Source: Rhodospirillales bacterium
GTDB lineage: Bacteria; Pseudomonadota; Alphaproteobacteria; ATCC43930; CGMCC-115725
DNA: 50,987 nt
Assembly: GCA_028291405.1 (NCBI GenBank)
Contig: JAQGID010000229.1
Span: 1-50,987, forward strand
Direction: 5' to 3'
In this document: in pieces, positions 37,927-44,223 of the stretch
Layout: every line of letters starts with the position of its first letter
How positions within the stretch are numbered: position 1 is the first letter of the stretch
The notes under the pieces: generated by a model
What the model saw: the letters and a program-made list of their open reading frames with translations, nothing else
The model's database searches: none
Told to the model about the DNA's origin: nothing
Translations under genes and position numbers: made by a program

Positions 37927-39747
37927 ATGACTTATCTTGGAAGATCCAAATTAACTATGTTCTGTCGAGTGTCGGTTCTACTTTTGCCATTACTTGCGGC
38001 GACTGCAGCAACTGCGGCGGAACGGTTCGATACGGTGGTCTCGGCGGCGCACAATGGCGCAGCGTCCGAGCCGGCCCTGCCGGCCGTCATCTCGCAGCTG
38101 GATGCCTTTCGCTACCACGGCATCTTCGCTCTCCAAGCCGAGGCGCGGTGGCAGGACGCCGATCGCGAAATCGCGCTGCTCCACGACCGCCTGCTCGTCG
38201 GCAACATCCTCGCGCAGCGATACTTGCACCGCGGCTACAAGCCGAGCTTCACCCAGTTGCGCGACTGGCTGGTAAGCTATGCCGACCTCCCCGGCGCCGC
38301 CGCCATTCGCGCCCTCGCCCTCAAGTCTCGCCCGCCGGGGGGCGGCCTCCTGCCGCAGCCGGAATCGGCGCCGATCGCCCTCCGCGGCGTCGCCGACGAC
38401 CGCGCCGATCTTTGGCCCGGAAATCGCCCGTCACGCAGCGATGCGGGCTCGCCGCACCGGGGCGCAATACGCGCTCTCGTGCATTCCGATCCCGCCGCTG
38501 CGGAAGGCGTGCTGCGCGAGGCCGAATCGGCGCATGAGCTCGACGGCGCCGATTACGACGAGGCGGCGGCCGACATCGCGGAGTCCTACCTCTTCTGCGG
38601 TGAAAGCCAGAAGGCACTGCGGCTGACCCAAGCAGTGCGAACCGACGCGTTTCGCCCGCTCGCCGCTTGGGATGCCGGTCTGGCCGCGTGGCGGCTCGGT
38701 CGGCTGGCCGAGGCGCGCAGCAATTTCGAGACCCTGGCGCGCAACCAGAACCTGTCGCGCTGGGTGCAAAGCGCCGCCGCCTTCTGGGCCGCGCGCGTCC
38801 AAGCCCGATCGGGCCGGCCGGATCTCGCCGCCGCCTGGCTGCGCACCGCGGCACAGCACGAGCGGACGTTCTACGGCCTTCTCGCCCGCCGGTCGCTGCG
38901 CGCCCAAATCGACTTCAACTTCGAGCCGGCGAGCTTTACCGACATCGACTTGAATGCCGTCGTCGTCCTCGCACCGGCGCGGCGCGCGGTGGCGCTGCTG
39001 CAGGCCGGCAAGGGCGCCGAGGCCGAGCTCGAGCTGCGCGGTCTTGCGCGTGGCGCACCTGTGACGCTCTACCCGGCGCTTGCCGCGCTCGCCGAGCGTG
39101 GCAACATGCCGGCGCTCAGCCTGCAGATCGCGACGATGCTCTCGGAAGTCGATGGGGCGCGGCACGATCCGGCGCTCTATCCGATGCCGCGATGGCGGCC
39201 ACAAGGCGGCTTCTCGGTCGACCGCGCCCTGCTTTTCGCGCTGGTCCGTCAGGAATCCGAGTTCCTTCCGGAGGCGCGCAGCGCGGCCGGCGCAGTCGGG
39301 CTGATGCAGCTTATGCCGGTCACCGCGCAGGGCATGGCGACCCGGGTCGGCATCACGCTGCAGAAGCACGGCAGCCCCGGCTCGCTGACCGATCCCGGCG
39401 TCAACCTCGCCCTCGGGCAGGAGTTTCTCGGCTGGTTGCTGAAGCACGAGCAGATCAACGGCAATCTCATCATGGTCGCCGCCGCCTACAACGGCGGCAC
39501 CGGCAATCTGGCACGCTGGCAGGCGCGGCCGGAGTACCGCGCCGATCCGTTGCTCTTCCTCGAGACGCTCCCGAATCGCGAAACCCGCAATTTCGTCGAG
39601 CGCGTCTTGACCAATTACTGGGTCTACCGCCTGCGTCTCGGGCAGCCGACCCGCGACCTCGATGCCCTTGCTGCCGGAGACTGGCCGGTCTATGTCGGTC
39701 TTGACGATACGCAAGAGCAGGAGACCCGCCATGTCGCGGCTCGATGA
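37927..39747 (+). CDS. soluble lytic murein transglycosylase (Slt family)
   Basis: The protein (606 residues from ATG 37927) cleaves peptidoglycan glycan strands in the periplasm, leaving 1,6-anhydro ends. It has a signal peptide (VLLLPLLAATAATAAERF), a long alpha-helical superhelix (about 40-430), and a C-terminal lysozyme-like domain with catalytic glutamate in FALVRQESEF, then GLMQLMPVTAQ and VAAAYNGGTGN. These are the family 1 LT motifs. ATG 37957 is an alternative start that still leaves a signal peptide. A CtrA-like box lies upstream. The stop overlaps the moaB start by 17 bp. Confidence 0.93.
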   Translation: MTYLGRSKLTMFCRVSVLLLPLLAATAATAAERFDTVVSAAHNGAASEPALPAVISQLDAFRYHGIFALQAEARWQDADREIALLHDRLLVGNILAQRYLHRGYKPSFTQLRDWLVSYADLPGAAAIRALALKSRPPGGGLLPQPESAPIALRGVADDRADLWPGNRPSRSDAGSPHRGAIRALVHSDPAAAEGVLREAESAHELDGADYDEAAADIAESYLFCGESQKALRLTQAVRTDAFRPLAAWDAGLAAWRLGRLAEARSNFETLARNQNLSRWVQSAAAFWAARVQARSGRPDLAAAWLRTAAQHERTFYGLLARRSLRAQIDFNFEPASFTDIDLNAVVVLAPARRAVALLQAGKGAEAELELRGLARGAPVTLYPALAALAERGNMPALSLQIATMLSEVDGARHDPALYPMPRWRPQGGFSVDRALLFALVRQESEFLPEARSAAGAVGLMQLMPVTAQGMATRVGITLQKHGSPGSLTDPGVNLALGQEFLGWLLKHEQINGNLIMVAAAYNGGTGNLARWQARPEYRADPLLFLETLPNRETRNFVERVLTNYWVYRLRLGQPTRDLDALAAGDWPVYVGLDDTQEQETRHVAAR

Positions 39748-40273
39748 GACCCGCCCGTTCCTCGCCGTCAACATCGCGATCCTGACCGTTTCCGACACTC
39801 GCACCGAGGCCGATGACCGCTCCGGCAACACTCTCGCCGAGCTCGCAACGGCAGCCGGCCATCGCGTCGCCGAACGCCGCATCGTGCGCGACGACCAGGC
39901 CAGCATCGTTGCCCAGCTCCGGCGCTGGATCGCCGACCCGACGATCGACGTCGTGATCGCGACCGGCGGCACCGGCGTCACTGGCCGCGACGTCACGCCC
40001 GAGGCGTTTCATTCGGTTTACGACAAGGAGATCGCCGGTTTCGGCGAGCTCTTCCGCATGTTGAGCTATCAAAAGATCGGCACCTCGACGATCCAGAGCC
40101 GGGCCACCGGCGGCGTCGCCGGCAGCACCTATCTCTTCGCGCTGCCGGGCTCGCCGGGCGCCTGCAGCGACGGCTGGGAGGGCATCCTGCAGCACCAGCT
40201 CGACAACCGCTTCCGCCCGTGCAATCTGGTCGAGTTGATGCCGCGCCTGCAAGAGCACCTGACGAAGGCGTGA
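39731..40273 (+). CDS. moaB: molybdenum cofactor biosynthesis protein B
   Basis: The 180-residue protein belongs to the MoaB/MogA fold that adenylylates molybdopterin before metal insertion. It has VNIAILTVSDTRTEADDRSGN, then IATGGTGVTGRDVTPEA and the LPGSPGACSDGW segment near the end. It is longer than some MogA proteins and matches MoaB. ATG 39731 lies inside the end of the transglycosylase gene (17-bp overlap), so the two are co-translated. The molybdenum link fits MobA at the right edge of the window, though the two are not adjacent. Confidence 0.92.
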   Translation: MSRLDETRPFLAVNIAILTVSDTRTEADDRSGNTLAELATAAGHRVAERRIVRDDQASIVAQLRRWIADPTIDVVIATGGTGVTGRDVTPEAFHSVYDKEIAGFGELFRMLSYQKIGTSTIQSRATGGVAGSTYLFALPGSPGACSDGWEGILQHQLDNRFRPCNLVELMPRLQEHLTKA

Positions 40274-40342: not shown

Positions 40343-41404
40343 TTGCCGATCGACAGCGAGACGCTGGACCCGAAGATCCTTGCCGCGGCCGTCGCGTGCC
40401 AGCCCGGCCTCAGCGAAATCGGCGCCGCCGATCTCGTGCCGATGCCACAGAAGGGCGTCGCGCATGCGCATTTCCGGATCGGCAACCGTGGTCTGGTGTT
40501 GCGCGTCCTGCGCCTTTCGCAATGGGCGCTGGCGGCGGCCGACAACCTCGCCTACCAGGCCGAATGCTTCCGCCGAACTGCTCCCTCCGGCGCGACGCCA
40601 CAGCTCTACGCCGTGCTGCCGATCAGCGATGCGATGCCGCGCGGCGCGCTGATCGTCGAGGAGATCGCCGGCCGACCGCCGCGACTGCCGCACGATCTCG
40701 CCGCGATCGCCGCAGCGCTCGCCCGATTGCACGCGTTGCCGCCGCCAGAAGCCGGCGCCAGAGCGCCGCTGGTGGATCATGGATCCGGCGGCCCGATCGC
40801 CGCGACGCTCGCCGTGATCGAGCGGCAGGCGCCGGCGCTCGATGCCGCCGATCTCGCCGCAGCAACCCGCGAGGCCCTGCTTGACGAGATCGCCTGGGCG
40901 CGTCGCCTCGCGGCAGGGACGCCGGCGGCGGCGCAGCCGATCGCCCTCGCCGCGACCGACACCCATCCCGGTAATTTCGTCATCCGGCCGAACGGCGAGG
41001 CCATCCTCGTCGATCTCGAGAAAGCGGCCTACGGCTCTCCGGCGATCGACCTCGCGCACGCGAGCCTCGTCACCTCGACGACCTGGGACATCGACGTCCA
41101 GGCGATCCTGTCGCGCGACGCCACCATCGGGTTCTACCGCGACTATCTGGGGCGCATCGGCGACACGGAATCCGCCCGGCTGCGCCCCTTCCTCGCCCCG
41201 GCGCGGCGCCTGACCTGGCTGCGGACGACGATGTGGTGCGTCCGGTGGCGCGTCGCCGCCGCGACCGACCCCGACTGGTCGGCATCGCGCGTCGATCCCA
41301 CCCTGCTGGCGCATATGGCCGGGCGCATCGCCGAGTTTTGCCGGCCGGAGTTCGTCGCCGCGGCGCGCGCCGAATGGCTGAGCAACCGGGCTTGGGATTT
41401 TTAG
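40343..41404 (+). CDS. aminoglycoside phosphotransferase/choline kinase-like protein
   Basis: The 353-residue protein has the APH fold. An N-lobe with HAHFRIGNRGLVLRVLRLSQ is followed by a hinge near ALIVEEIAGRPP. The C-lobe has the catalytic loop ATDTHPGNFVI (catalytic Asp, Asn) and the metal site ILVDLEKAAYGSPAIDLAH. Such kinases phosphorylate small hydroxyl compounds, including choline, homoserine, sugars or drugs; the substrate is unknown and resistance should not be assumed. The start is a TTG at 40343; no ATG gives the full N-lobe. It follows moaB on the same strand after 69 bp. Confidence 0.8.
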   Translation: MPIDSETLDPKILAAAVACQPGLSEIGAADLVPMPQKGVAHAHFRIGNRGLVLRVLRLSQWALAAADNLAYQAECFRRTAPSGATPQLYAVLPISDAMPRGALIVEEIAGRPPRLPHDLAAIAAALARLHALPPPEAGARAPLVDHGSGGPIAATLAVIERQAPALDAADLAAATREALLDEIAWARRLAAGTPAAAQPIALAATDTHPGNFVIRPNGEAILVDLEKAAYGSPAIDLAHASLVTSTTWDIDVQAILSRDATIGFYRDYLGRIGDTESARLRPFLAPARRLTWLRTTMWCVRWRVAAATDPDWSASRVDPTLLAHMAGRIAEFCRPEFVAAARAEWLSNRAWDF

Positions 41405-41419
41405 TCACCAGAAAATTTT

Positions 41420-41434
41420 GTTCTTGAAATGTTC
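41420..41434. promoter_or_regulatory. LexA (SOS) box of alphaproteobacterial type
   Basis: GTTC (41420-41423), seven AT-rich bases TTGAAAT, then GTTC (41431-41434) match the alphaproteobacterial LexA site GTTC-N7-GTTC. It ends 25 bp before the radical SAM gene start, where it would overlap a promoter. The pattern alone occurs about once or twice by chance in this much sequence, but rarely at such a position. Confidence 0.6.
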
Positions 41435-41459
41435 CAATCGATGACCGACATTCTTCGCC

Positions 41460-42545
41460 ATGGAGATGCCGATCACCGCCCCGCCGCGCAAGGGTCGCGG
41501 CGCCCTCAGCAACGCCGTCGGTCGTTTCGAGCCGCAGCAGCGCGTCGCGACCGATGACGGTTGGGGCAGCGCCGATGAGGCGCCGCCGCCGCTCGCCACT
41601 GTCCTGACCGTCGACAGCACGCGTACGATCATTGCCCGCAACAACTCGCCGGATGTCGGCTTCGACCGCTCGATCAACCCCTATCGCGGCTGCGAGCACG
41701 GCTGCGTCTATTGCTTCGCCCGGCCGACGCACGCTTATCTCGGCCTGTCGCCCGGCCTCGATTTCGAGAGCCGGATCTTCGTCAAGCCGGAGGCCGCGCG
41801 GCTGCTGGAGGCAGAGCTCGCCAAGCCGGGCTATTCGTGCCGGCCGATCGCGATGGGCACCAATACCGATCCGTATCAGCCGACCGAGCGCAAGCTGGCG
41901 ATCACGCGCTCGATCCTCGAGGTCTTGCGCGCCCACAACCATCCCGTCTGCATCGTCACGAAATCGGCGCTGATCCAGCGAGACATCGACATCCTGTCGG
42001 ATATGGCGGCCAAACGTCTGGCCAGCGTCTCGCTTTCGGTGACGACCCTCGATCGCGGTCTCGCACGGAGCATGGAGCCGCGCTGCGCGACGCCCGAGCG
42101 GCGGCTCGAGACGATCCGCGCCCTGACCGATGCCGGAATTCCGACCGGAGTCCTCGCGGCGCCGATGATTCCGGCGCTCAACGATTCCGAACTCGAGGCG
42201 ATCCTCACCGCGTCGATGAAGGCCGGGGCGATCAGCGCCGGCTATGTCCTCCTGCGGCTGCCGCACGAGGTCAAGGCGCTGTTCCGCGAATGGCTCGAGA
42301 CGCATGCTCCCGGCCGCGCCAAGCACGTGCTGTCGTTGATCACCGAGATGCACGGCGGCAAGGCCTACGATGCGCAATGGGGCAGCCGAATGACGGGACA
42401 AGGCCATTACGCCGAGGTGCTCCGCATCCGCTTCGAGCTCGCCTGCAAGCGGCTGGGATTGCGCCATCGCGGCGGCACCGGCCCGCTCGAGACGCGCCTC
42501 TTCCGCAAGCCGGCGCGCAAGGGCGAGCAGCTCAGGCTCCTCTAG
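41460..42545 (+). CDS. PA0069-family radical SAM protein (spore photoproduct lyase-related)
   Basis: The 361-residue protein binds a 4Fe-4S cluster and S-adenosylmethionine through CEHGCVYCFA (C-x3-C-x2-C), preceded by SINPYRG. The SPL-like barrel continues with AMGTNTDPYQPTERKLAITR and LASVSLSVTTLDRGLARSMEPR. The family is related to spore photoproduct lyase, which repairs thymine photoproducts, but the function of the PA0069 branch is not established to my knowledge. ATG 41460 is taken as start; ATG 41466 is possible. A LexA-like box just upstream suggests SOS induction and so a DNA-repair role. Neighbours are unrelated. Confidence 0.93.
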   Translation: MEMPITAPPRKGRGALSNAVGRFEPQQRVATDDGWGSADEAPPPLATVLTVDSTRTIIARNNSPDVGFDRSINPYRGCEHGCVYCFARPTHAYLGLSPGLDFESRIFVKPEAARLLEAELAKPGYSCRPIAMGTNTDPYQPTERKLAITRSILEVLRAHNHPVCIVTKSALIQRDIDILSDMAAKRLASVSLSVTTLDRGLARSMEPRCATPERRLETIRALTDAGIPTGVLAAPMIPALNDSELEAILTASMKAGAISAGYVLLRLPHEVKALFREWLETHAPGRAKHVLSLITEMHGGKAYDAQWGSRMTGQGHYAEVLRIRFELACKRLGLRHRGGTGPLETRLFRKPARKGEQLRLL

Positions 42546-42708
42546 CAAGCGGCGGCGAAAACCCCATCCAACGCCGGTCGAGAAGCTGATAGAGTGCGGC
42601 GTCGCGGCCGATCGGCCGCCGGCGTGCCGGGTGGACCCAGCGGCGGACGATCCGCGAGGCCTGCCGGTCGCGACCGTTCCGCATTACCGAGAGTCGAGGA
42701 GAATTGCC

Positions 42709-44223
42709 GTGTTCGCTTGTCACGCCGCCTTTGTCGGTCCAGCGGTCGTGCCGCGCGCCTGGCATCGCGCCGTTGCCCGCTGCCTCGTGATCTGCTGCGC
42801 GGTCGCGATTGTTCAGCCGGCGGCGGCGCAGACGCGGGCGCTTCCCGACAGTTTCGGCGACCTCGCACAGACGCTCGGACCGTCGGTTGTCAATATCTCG
42901 ACGACCCAAGCGCCTAGCGACAAGGGCGACAAGGATTCCGCCGACAGCCCCGAGCTGCCGCCGAGCTCGCCGTTGGACCAGTTCGGCGATAGTTTCAGCA
43001 ATCGCGGGCGCCAGGGCGTGCAGCGACCGCAAATTCATTCACTCGGTTCCGGCTTCGTCATCGCCGCTTCCGGCCTGATCGTCACGAACAACCACGTCAT
43101 CGCCGGCGCCGAGGAAATCAACGTCATTCTGCCGGACGACACGAAGCTCAAGGCGCAGGTCGTCGGCCGCGACACCGTTACCGATCTCGCGCTGCTGAAG
43201 GTCGATCCGAAGCAACCGCTGACCGAGATCAAATGGGGTGATTCGACAAAGGCTCGCGTCGGCGATTGGGTGCTCGCCGTCGGCAACCCGTTCGGCCTGG
43301 GCGGCTCGGTGACCGCCGGTATCGTCTCGGCGCGGGCGCGCGATCTCCAGGCCGGGCCCTACGACGACTTCCTCCAGACCGACGCATCGATCAACCGCGG
43401 CAACTCTGGCGGCCCGCTGGTCAACCTCGCCGGCGAGGTGATCGGGATCAATACGGCGATCTACTCGCCATCGGGCGGCTCGATCGGCATCGGTTTCGCG
43501 ATCCCCTCCTCGCTGGCGCAGCCGGTGATCGAGCAGCTGATGAAGAGCGGCAAGGTCGAGCGCGGCTGGATCGGTGTCCGCATCCAGGCCATGAGCGACG
43601 AGATCGCCGATACGGTCGGACTCGACAAGCCGCGTGGCGCCCTCGTCACTGACGTCGATCAGAACAGCCCGGCGGCGCGCGCCAAGCTCCTGCCGGGAGA
43701 CGTCATCCTGAGCTTCGACGGCAAGCCGATCGAGAAGACGCGGCAGCTGCCGCGCCTCGTCGCCGAGACGCCGGCCGACAAGACCGTCCCCGTCGGCCTC
43801 TGGCGCGACGGCAAGGATCTGGCGGTCGACGTCAAGGTCGGCGCCCTGAACACCGAGAAGCTGGCCGCCGCGCCGGCTCCGGCCGACAGTCCGCAGAAGG
43901 TCACGCCGACCATCGACGCCGTCGGAATGTCGCTCGCCAAGGTGACGCCTGACCTGAGGCACGACATGGAGCTGGGTGACGACGTCAAGGGCGTGATCGT
44001 CGTCGACATCGACGAGGACAGCGCCGCGGCCAAGCAGGGCGTGCAGCCGGGCGACGTCGTCGGTGCGGTCGGCCGCGATGCGGTTACGACGCCGGAGCAG
44101 GTCGTTGAGAAGGTCGAAGCGGCCAAGAAGGGGGGAAAGAAATCGATTCTGCTGCGCATCGAGCGCGACGGATTCGGCCAGTTCTTCGCGCTCCCGATCG
44201 ACGGCAAGACCAACGGCGGCTGA
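42709..44223 (+). CDS. Do/DegP-family periplasmic serine protease
   Basis: The 504-residue HtrA protein degrades or refolds damaged envelope proteins. A signal peptide ends near PAAAQ (residue 41). The trypsin-like domain has the catalytic triad: H129 in VTNNHVI, D159 in TDLALLKVD and S233 in RGNSGGPL. Two PDZ domains follow (about 280-375 and 405-495). The GTG at 42709 is chosen because GAGGAGA lies at ideal distance; the longer frame adds unlikely sequence. It stands alone on the plus strand, followed after 118 bp by the Wza-like lipoprotein. No sigma-E or CpxR site was recognised upstream. Confidence 0.95.
   Translation: MFACHAAFVGPAVVPRAWHRAVARCLVICCAVAIVQPAAAQTRALPDSFGDLAQTLGPSVVNISTTQAPSDKGDKDSADSPELPPSSPLDQFGDSFSNRGRQGVQRPQIHSLGSGFVIAASGLIVTNNHVIAGAEEINVILPDDTKLKAQVVGRDTVTDLALLKVDPKQPLTEIKWGDSTKARVGDWVLAVGNPFGLGGSVTAGIVSARARDLQAGPYDDFLQTDASINRGNSGGPLVNLAGEVIGINTAIYSPSGGSIGIGFAIPSSLAQPVIEQLMKSGKVERGWIGVRIQAMSDEIADTVGLDKPRGALVTDVDQNSPAARAKLLPGDVILSFDGKPIEKTRQLPRLVAETPADKTVPVGLWRDGKDLAVDVKVGALNTEKLAAAPAPADSPQKVTPTIDAVGMSLAKVTPDLRHDMELGDDVKGVIVVDIDEDSAAAKQGVQPGDVVGAVGRDAVTTPEQVVEKVEAAKKGGKKSILLRIERDGFGQFFALPIDGKTNGG

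Follow-up and report, generated by a model that had tools for sequence, protein, structure and literature searches.

A probable LexA operator overlapping the proposed -35 of a radical SAM gene of the PA0069 family in Alphaproteobacteria

The motif GTTC-N7-GTTC, described as the LexA motif of Alphaproteobacteria (PMC8565304), stands just before a radical SAM gene of the PA0069 family in a Rhodospirillales bacterium. This raises the question of whether the gene belongs to the SOS response and, if so, what its enzyme would do when DNA is damaged. We studied the locus in a stretch of 50,987 nucleotides (hereafter, the window; Table 1). The protein scores 526.9 bits against the profile NF033668 (rSAM_PA0069, cut-off 360) and covers it in full length (profile positions 1-348), which bears out the family named in a first, sequence-only reading of this DNA. 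The same reading placed a box 25 bp before the start of the gene, and this is confirmed: GTTCTTGAAATGTTC lies at 41420-41434 on the forward strand, and 25 bases (41435-41459) separate it from the ATG at 41460. Our literature search found no paper settling the function of the family, and queries for PA0069 with radical SAM or with LexA returned none; two papers in which PA0069 occurs mention it only in passing.

Table 1. Features of the locus and its surroundings, in window coordinates.
Feature	Position	Strand	Basis or remark
moaB (start codon not settled)	39731..40273	+	TIGR02667
Upstream gene, 353 aa, presumably phosphotransferase-like	40343..41404	+	no NCBIfam match; similar gene in 6/110 loci, window included
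Putative LexA operator (SOS box), GTTC-TTGAAAT-GTTC	41420..41434	+	pattern match; orthologue conservation
Proposed -35 hexamer TTGAAA, inside the box spacer	41424..41429	+	conservation of the TTG columns
Proposed -10 hexamer GACATT, 17 bases after the -35	41447..41452	+	column conservation across loci; weak match in the window
PA0069-family radical SAM protein, 361 aa	41460..42545 (with stop)	+	NF033668; PF04055 Radical_SAM
Codons for CEHGCVYC (residues 78-85), [4Fe-4S] cysteine motif	41691..41714	+	C78, C82 and C85 in 140/140
Do/HtrA-family protease, downstream	42631..44223	+	TIGR02037

At the composition of the window, 1.09 matches to GTTC-N7-GTTC are expected by chance, and at least one was present in 72 of 100 shuffles, so the single match at 41420 proves nothing alone. 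It is the conservation upstream of orthologues that makes the box real beyond chance. The exact pattern stands in the roughly 250 bases before the gene in 94 of 110 PA0069 orthologue loci, i.e., in 28 of the 30 taken from whole genomes of the window's family and in 66 of the 80 taken from named contigs. The same pattern occurs in 3 of 1450 control windows of equal length from other parts of these loci, which are expected to be coding for the most part; the opposite orientation occurs in 2 of the very same 110 upstream windows. Nine of the 16 loci that have no exact box carry a one-mismatch site (accompanied in one case by an exact box in the opposite strand), and seven carry nothing; among these seven, one has only about 40 upstream bases and three are labelled as outside Alphaproteobacteria. 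The spacing between box and gene covers a broad range, from about -39 to -412 relative to the profile start.

Two other sets of orthologues extend these counts, some genomes being shared among the three sets. A phylum-wide draw, made of the best matches only, has the exact box in 50 of 57 fetched class members among the matches listed, and the reversed pattern in 2 of the 57. In the same draw, 30 of 30 further class loci among the matches listed have the box; 19 listed class members were left out of the box count. A draw across families comprised 57 genomes from 56 families (two genomes being from the window's own), of which the best 30 loci were examined and 29 were placed. Here the exact box is found in 27 of the 29 placed loci, and the other two have one-mismatch sites; the thirtieth locus (genome G399), outside the 29, has the box in the phylum draw (L284). 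The Sinorhizobium meliloti orthologue, the one inspected of 34 plasmid-collection records with a match, is annotated 'PA0069 family radical SAM protein' and carries GTTCTTGCTTTGTTC. The box is thus present in close and in distant orthologues. We give practically no weight to the alternative of a chance match beside a gene that is not damage-regulated, for which the expectation of about one match per window speaks and which upstream conservation in three partly overlapping orthologue sets rules out.

The genome encodes a LexA with LexA_DNA_bind and Peptidase_S24 domains, and GTTCTAGTTTGGTTC lies 59 bases before the start of its gene. Hence, a LexA of the alphaproteobacterial type, which the sequence-only reading presupposed, is encoded here with the same box upstream of its own gene. 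GTTCCTGATATGTTC lies 29 bases before the start of imuA, with imuB next (the ImuA assignment scores 77 bits against the NCBIfam profile, below its cut-off of 150). Both boxes are oriented opposite to their genes, unlike the box at the PA0069 gene, which does not point against its gene. The recA gene has one-mismatch boxes only, and no GTTC-N7-GTTC box was found upstream of uvrA in this genome. Of the genes that the first reading proposed to scan for the box, lexA and imuA-imuB have it, and recA has it with one mismatch only. Across the class, the same half-sites are present upstream of lexA, on either strand, in 26 of 30 lexA loci. The conservation at orthologues, the LexA of this genome, and the boxes at lexA and imuA all support the reading of the element as an SOS box under LexA control.

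The pattern also has other matches in the genome. When two spacer positions are restricted to A/T, GTTC-N7-GTTC has 49 sites in the whole genome, and the reversed control pattern 13. We scanned 30 proteins encoded beside such sites, covering part of the 49; the genes were chosen in part by third-position G+C. No classical SOS gene besides lexA and imuA was found among them, so many of these boxes are probably not SOS sites. Three GTTC-N7-GTTC matches (L172:1546, L156:1501 and L150:1501, on contigs C380, C244 and C208) run into GTTCTTTGACAT and have some flanks in common. We take the GTTCTTTGACA element at these three sites to be boxA-like, and the sites look to us like boxA-type RNA leaders; such sites are a class of false positives in counts of SOS boxes. 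Boxes such as GTTCATTATATGTTC precede four DUF5681 genes of this genome (L012, L147, L149 and L182). Read on the gene strand, one of the boxes contains TATAAT and the others something close to it; these may be damage-controlled genes, or the boxes may be part of a common promoter of a mobile family. A second GTTCTTGTTTTGTTC box (L167:1564, contig C333) precedes two small genes of 112 and 103 aa, which have no NCBIfam match, the first being without a Pfam match as well. Both are candidate novel SOS genes.

The spacer of the box provides information on the promoter. In 154 de-duplicated PA0069 boxes, the commonest spacer is TTG[AT][TA][TA]T, and TTG occupies the positions of the proposed -35 element in 117 of the 154, compared with 0 of 28 lexA boxes. 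Column conservation across loci returns at +27 to +32 from the box. Among the 117 TTG boxes, a -10 element fits best at offset 27, i.e., 17 bases after a -35 that starts at the TTG: a -10-like xA...T is found there in 51 of 117, whereas offsets 36-59 average 4.8. Of the 37 boxes that lack TTG, 6 have it at offset 27, and for these boxes other offsets give better scores. The conserved TTG and -10 imply that the LexA half-sites flank the -35 of the PA0069 promoter. In the window, the proposed -10 agrees with TATAAT at 3 of 6 positions, and a scan with consensus promoters reported no sigma-70 promoter at the box. An in-frame ATG follows the -10 by 6-9 bases in 28 of the 28 boxed loci of the window's family. 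As the ATG falls where the transcript is expected to start, the mRNA is probably leaderless in this family, and the gene in the window probably has such a transcript. This arrangement is not general, since the annotated start in S. meliloti lies 64 bases after the box.

Orthologues outside the class lack the alphaproteobacterial pattern and often have another. Among the best-scoring matches listed, GTTC-N7-GTTC occurs in 0 of 43 such orthologues and CTGT-N8-ACAG, which we take to be the LexA box of the groups concerned, in 26 of 43, lying 35-95 bases upstream of the profile start; a reversed control of the latter gives 1 of 43. A further 2 of these 43 (one of them read by eye, and for a pattern that had no control) have TTAG-N6-TACTA, presumably the Xanthomonad-type box, and 15 of the 43 have no recognised box of a known type. 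Among the matches listed, 19 of the 26 orthologues with CTGT-N8-ACAG come from a single family (f48) and the other seven from four families, which makes for fewer independent cases than the count suggests. Two genomes of another family (G128 and G286, family f50) have at least three PA0069 matches each, and their fetched copies (L234 and L223) have TTAG-N6-TACTA upstream.

The gene also co-occurs with LexA. Among 57 class genomes, 46 have LexA and 33 have an intact PA0069 gene, and all 33 have LexA; the intact gene is thus found in 33 of 46 genomes with LexA and in 0 of 11 without it (Fisher p 1.4e-5). Nine of the 11 LexA-less genomes are smaller than 2 Mb, and this small size could by itself account for the missing gene. 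For genomes of at least 2.3 Mb, the table becomes 31, 5, 0, 2 (Fisher p 0.03), with two LexA-less genomes only. In one genome in which no LexA was found, a PA0069 gene is in pieces with stop codons (G478:C3:15439-16481), which may be an assembly fault.

These data bear on a reading without LexA, in which the conserved GTTC repeats would serve as an element of the core promoter or be bound by a different regulator. The conserved spacer TTG and -10 do show that the box overlaps a promoter, and some GTTC-N7-GTTC sites of the genome, such as the three with the boxA-like element, seem to be something else. However, lexA promoters keep the half-sites around a different spacer, which sets the half-sites apart from the -35. 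Moreover, outside the class many of the best-scoring orthologues listed have CTGT-N8-ACAG in place of the GTTC repeats, and no intact gene was found without LexA among the 57 genomes surveyed for the two. We regard this reading as highly improbable. Given the LexA box across the class and the other LexA-type box in part of the phylum outside it, LexA control is the preferred interpretation, and the enzyme is strongly indicated as one that is wanted upon DNA damage. Judging from these sequence patterns, it is very probably made upon DNA damage in this bacterium, as predicted for some other bacteria.

What the enzyme does is a separate question, and the sequence-only reading related it to spore photoproduct lyase. 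We aligned 140 PA0069 proteins, which belong to the class apart from a few whose loci have other labels; the 43 orthologues from outside the class were left out. The three cysteines of the cluster and the tyrosine before the third of them are invariant (140/140). The residue after the third cysteine is phenylalanine in 125 proteins, as in the window (F86), and tyrosine in 15. No other cysteine is conserved in the 140 proteins, the best positions being residues 329 (70/140) and 127 (45/140). An AlphaFold2 model of the window protein has a mean pLDDT of 79.1 and a pTM of 0.80, with residues 1-32 poorly defined. Spore photoproduct lyase takes ranks 1-6 of a Foldseek search with this model, and an alignment with VIA-align 2 gives it a Z of 19.7 (3.2 A over 262 residues), with the next family at 15.2. 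Further structural matches are NifB, lipoyl synthase, RlmN, and viperin. Searched by sequence, the single protein gave no solved relative, and a profile gave weak matches that did not include the lyase; the relation emerged from the fold comparison. A profile comparison with a distant lyase covers 55 columns at 12% probability, and an ungapped comparison gives no meaningful register. The claim that the catalytic cysteine of the lyase is missing is accordingly drawn from conservation within the family.

In passages of PMC5368176, C141 and Y99 (Bacillus subtilis numbering) are given as the residues by which spore photoproduct lyase acts, and Y97 as one that assists. The likeness of PA0069 to the lyase (PDB 4fhc and related entries) consists of the fold, the CxxxCxxC motif, and the tyrosine before the third cysteine. 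The differences are the lack of a conserved extra cysteine, an identity of 14%, and the position of Y99, which is mostly phenylalanine in PA0069 when placed by the motif rather than by alignment. If PA0069 were a true spore photoproduct lyase, the box would put the repair of the spore photoproduct under SOS control, as the name splB, used for such genes, implies. This would agree with the clear margin by which the lyase is the best structural match and with the invariant tyrosine, and one clostridial lyase, according to passages of PMC5368176, places its cysteine elsewhere. Against this, both C141 and Y99 are needed in the lyase, and PA0069 has no conserved cysteine beyond the cluster and has phenylalanine at the second position in most proteins. 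In addition, the Pfam lyase family (SPL, PF20903) has no match in this genome at E 0.001 and occurs in 2 of 192 class genomes, and the spore photoproduct is described in the abstract of PMC3742179 as the lesion of endospores. We therefore consider a true lyase improbable. The fold match together with the failed residue test indicates a protein that resembles a radical SAM repair enzyme and, although named for spore photoproduct lyase, is probably a different enzyme. Hence, the relation proposed by the first reading holds for the predicted fold and does not extend to the catalytic cysteine.

Another protein family gives a further point of comparison. The second-best NCBIfam match of the window protein is the Rv2578c family radical SAM protein (NF038135; 232 bits, under the cut-off of 430). 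Rv2578c belongs to the mycobacterial LexA regulon, and PA0069 itself is reportedly one of the genes in the 2006 SOS study of Pseudomonas aeruginosa. A literature search for Rv2578c with LexA found nothing.

LexA control leaves room for functions other than DNA repair, and the step from the one to the other is one that we infer. As part of the damage response, a LexA-controlled enzyme might instead modify RNA, a protein, or some small molecule. This would agree with the versatility of radical SAM folds, illustrated by the structural matches to NifB, lipoyl synthase, RlmN, and viperin, and with the frequent position of moaB, a cofactor gene, upstream of the PA0069 gene on the same strand (42 of 110 orthologue loci). 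On the other hand, a DNA repair enzyme heads the structural matches, and RNase HII often follows the gene, lying downstream in the same orientation at 66 of 110 loci (58 of the 80 contig loci and 8 of the 30 family loci; e.g., L064:3061-3663). The latter count was made after 8 of 10 scanned downstream genes had proved to be RNase HII. We judge a function outside repair to be unlikely, while giving it serious consideration, and prefer an action on damaged nucleic acid. The adjacency of the two genes raises the possibility that, in many alphaproteobacteria, the induction of PA0069 is coupled to that of ribonucleotide repair. The pairing does not apply to the window itself, where an HtrA-type protease follows; this protease is not a conserved neighbour, being found at 1 of 110 loci, the window's own.

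The regulatory part of these results has precedents. Passages of PMC8565304 give SplB (COG1533) as SOS-regulated in several species and cite a ciprofloxacin study of P. aeruginosa (Cirz 2006); in passages of PMC3323433, splB is predicted to be LexA-regulated in alpha- and beta-Proteobacteria, read as photoreactivation, and this control is not seen in the gamma group; passages of PMC3765255 link SplB-like enzymes to SOS operons. Because these papers already tie splB-like genes to LexA or the SOS response, what we describe is mainly a further instance of a published pattern, namely LexA control of genes of this class. The splB gene of PMC3323433 is likewise of the radical SAM kind, has a relation to spore photoproduct lyase, and carries its group's LexA box upstream. 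The box in S. meliloti and the rarity of the Pfam lyase family in the class suggest that the published alphaproteobacterial splB is very probably the PA0069 family. Two points differ from the relevant passages of PMC3323433. In contrast to the negative result for the gamma group, CTGT-N8-ACAG is present in 26 of the 43 best-scoring orthologues listed from outside the class (GTDB merges beta with gamma), and, in contrast to the reading as photoreactivation, the catalytic cysteine of the lyase is not conserved in PA0069. The Bacteroidetes LexA networks in passages of PMC8565304 likewise have a COG1533 radical SAM protein, SplB, among their SOS genes, but with other LexA proteins and other motifs, and those passages show no PA0069 assignment. 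The portions of a paper on Caulobacter repair genes that were available (PMC1839093) contain neither 'splB' nor 'spore'. In the passages concerned of PMC3323433, PMC8565304, and PMC3765255, reached by searches not directed at these points individually, we found neither a -35 inside the box nor a leaderless start, and no mention of the missing cysteine, of the gene's co-occurrence with LexA, or of RNase HII as its neighbour.

Altogether, we are highly confident in an interpretation in which a LexA operator lies over the -35 of a damage-induced, probably leaderless PA0069 gene whose enzyme most probably acts on damaged nucleic acid. LexA binding, damage induction, the transcription start, and the substrate of the enzyme are the parts that we infer from sequence and predicted structure. 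As long as DNA is intact, LexA would sit on the two GTTC half-sites and keep RNA polymerase off the TTG-type -35 between them. Upon DNA damage, RecA would trigger the self-cleavage of LexA and the promoter would open. In the window's family, the transcript would probably begin at the ATG, giving a leaderless mRNA. The enzyme, with a fold close to that of spore photoproduct lyase, would then carry out radical chemistry on damaged nucleic acid by a route other than the cysteine relay of the lyase.

An operator over the -35, combined with an apparently leaderless start, makes for a compact promoter design, and the link to damage together with the missing cysteine makes the function of PA0069 a question that is directly testable. 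More tentatively, and as a possibility that we would not yet favour, PA0069 may be a damage-induced nucleic-acid repair enzyme with a new radical chemistry, made together with RNase HII in many alphaproteobacteria and kept under LexA as the motif changed. If so, this would be a lyase fold without a conserved hydrogen-donor cysteine, in which the substrate radical would be quenched in another way and probably a different lesion repaired. PA0069 and RNase HII, expressed from one LexA-controlled promoter, would form a clean-up pair behind the SOS polymerases, and the family would have stayed under LexA while the binding motif of LexA changed between groups.
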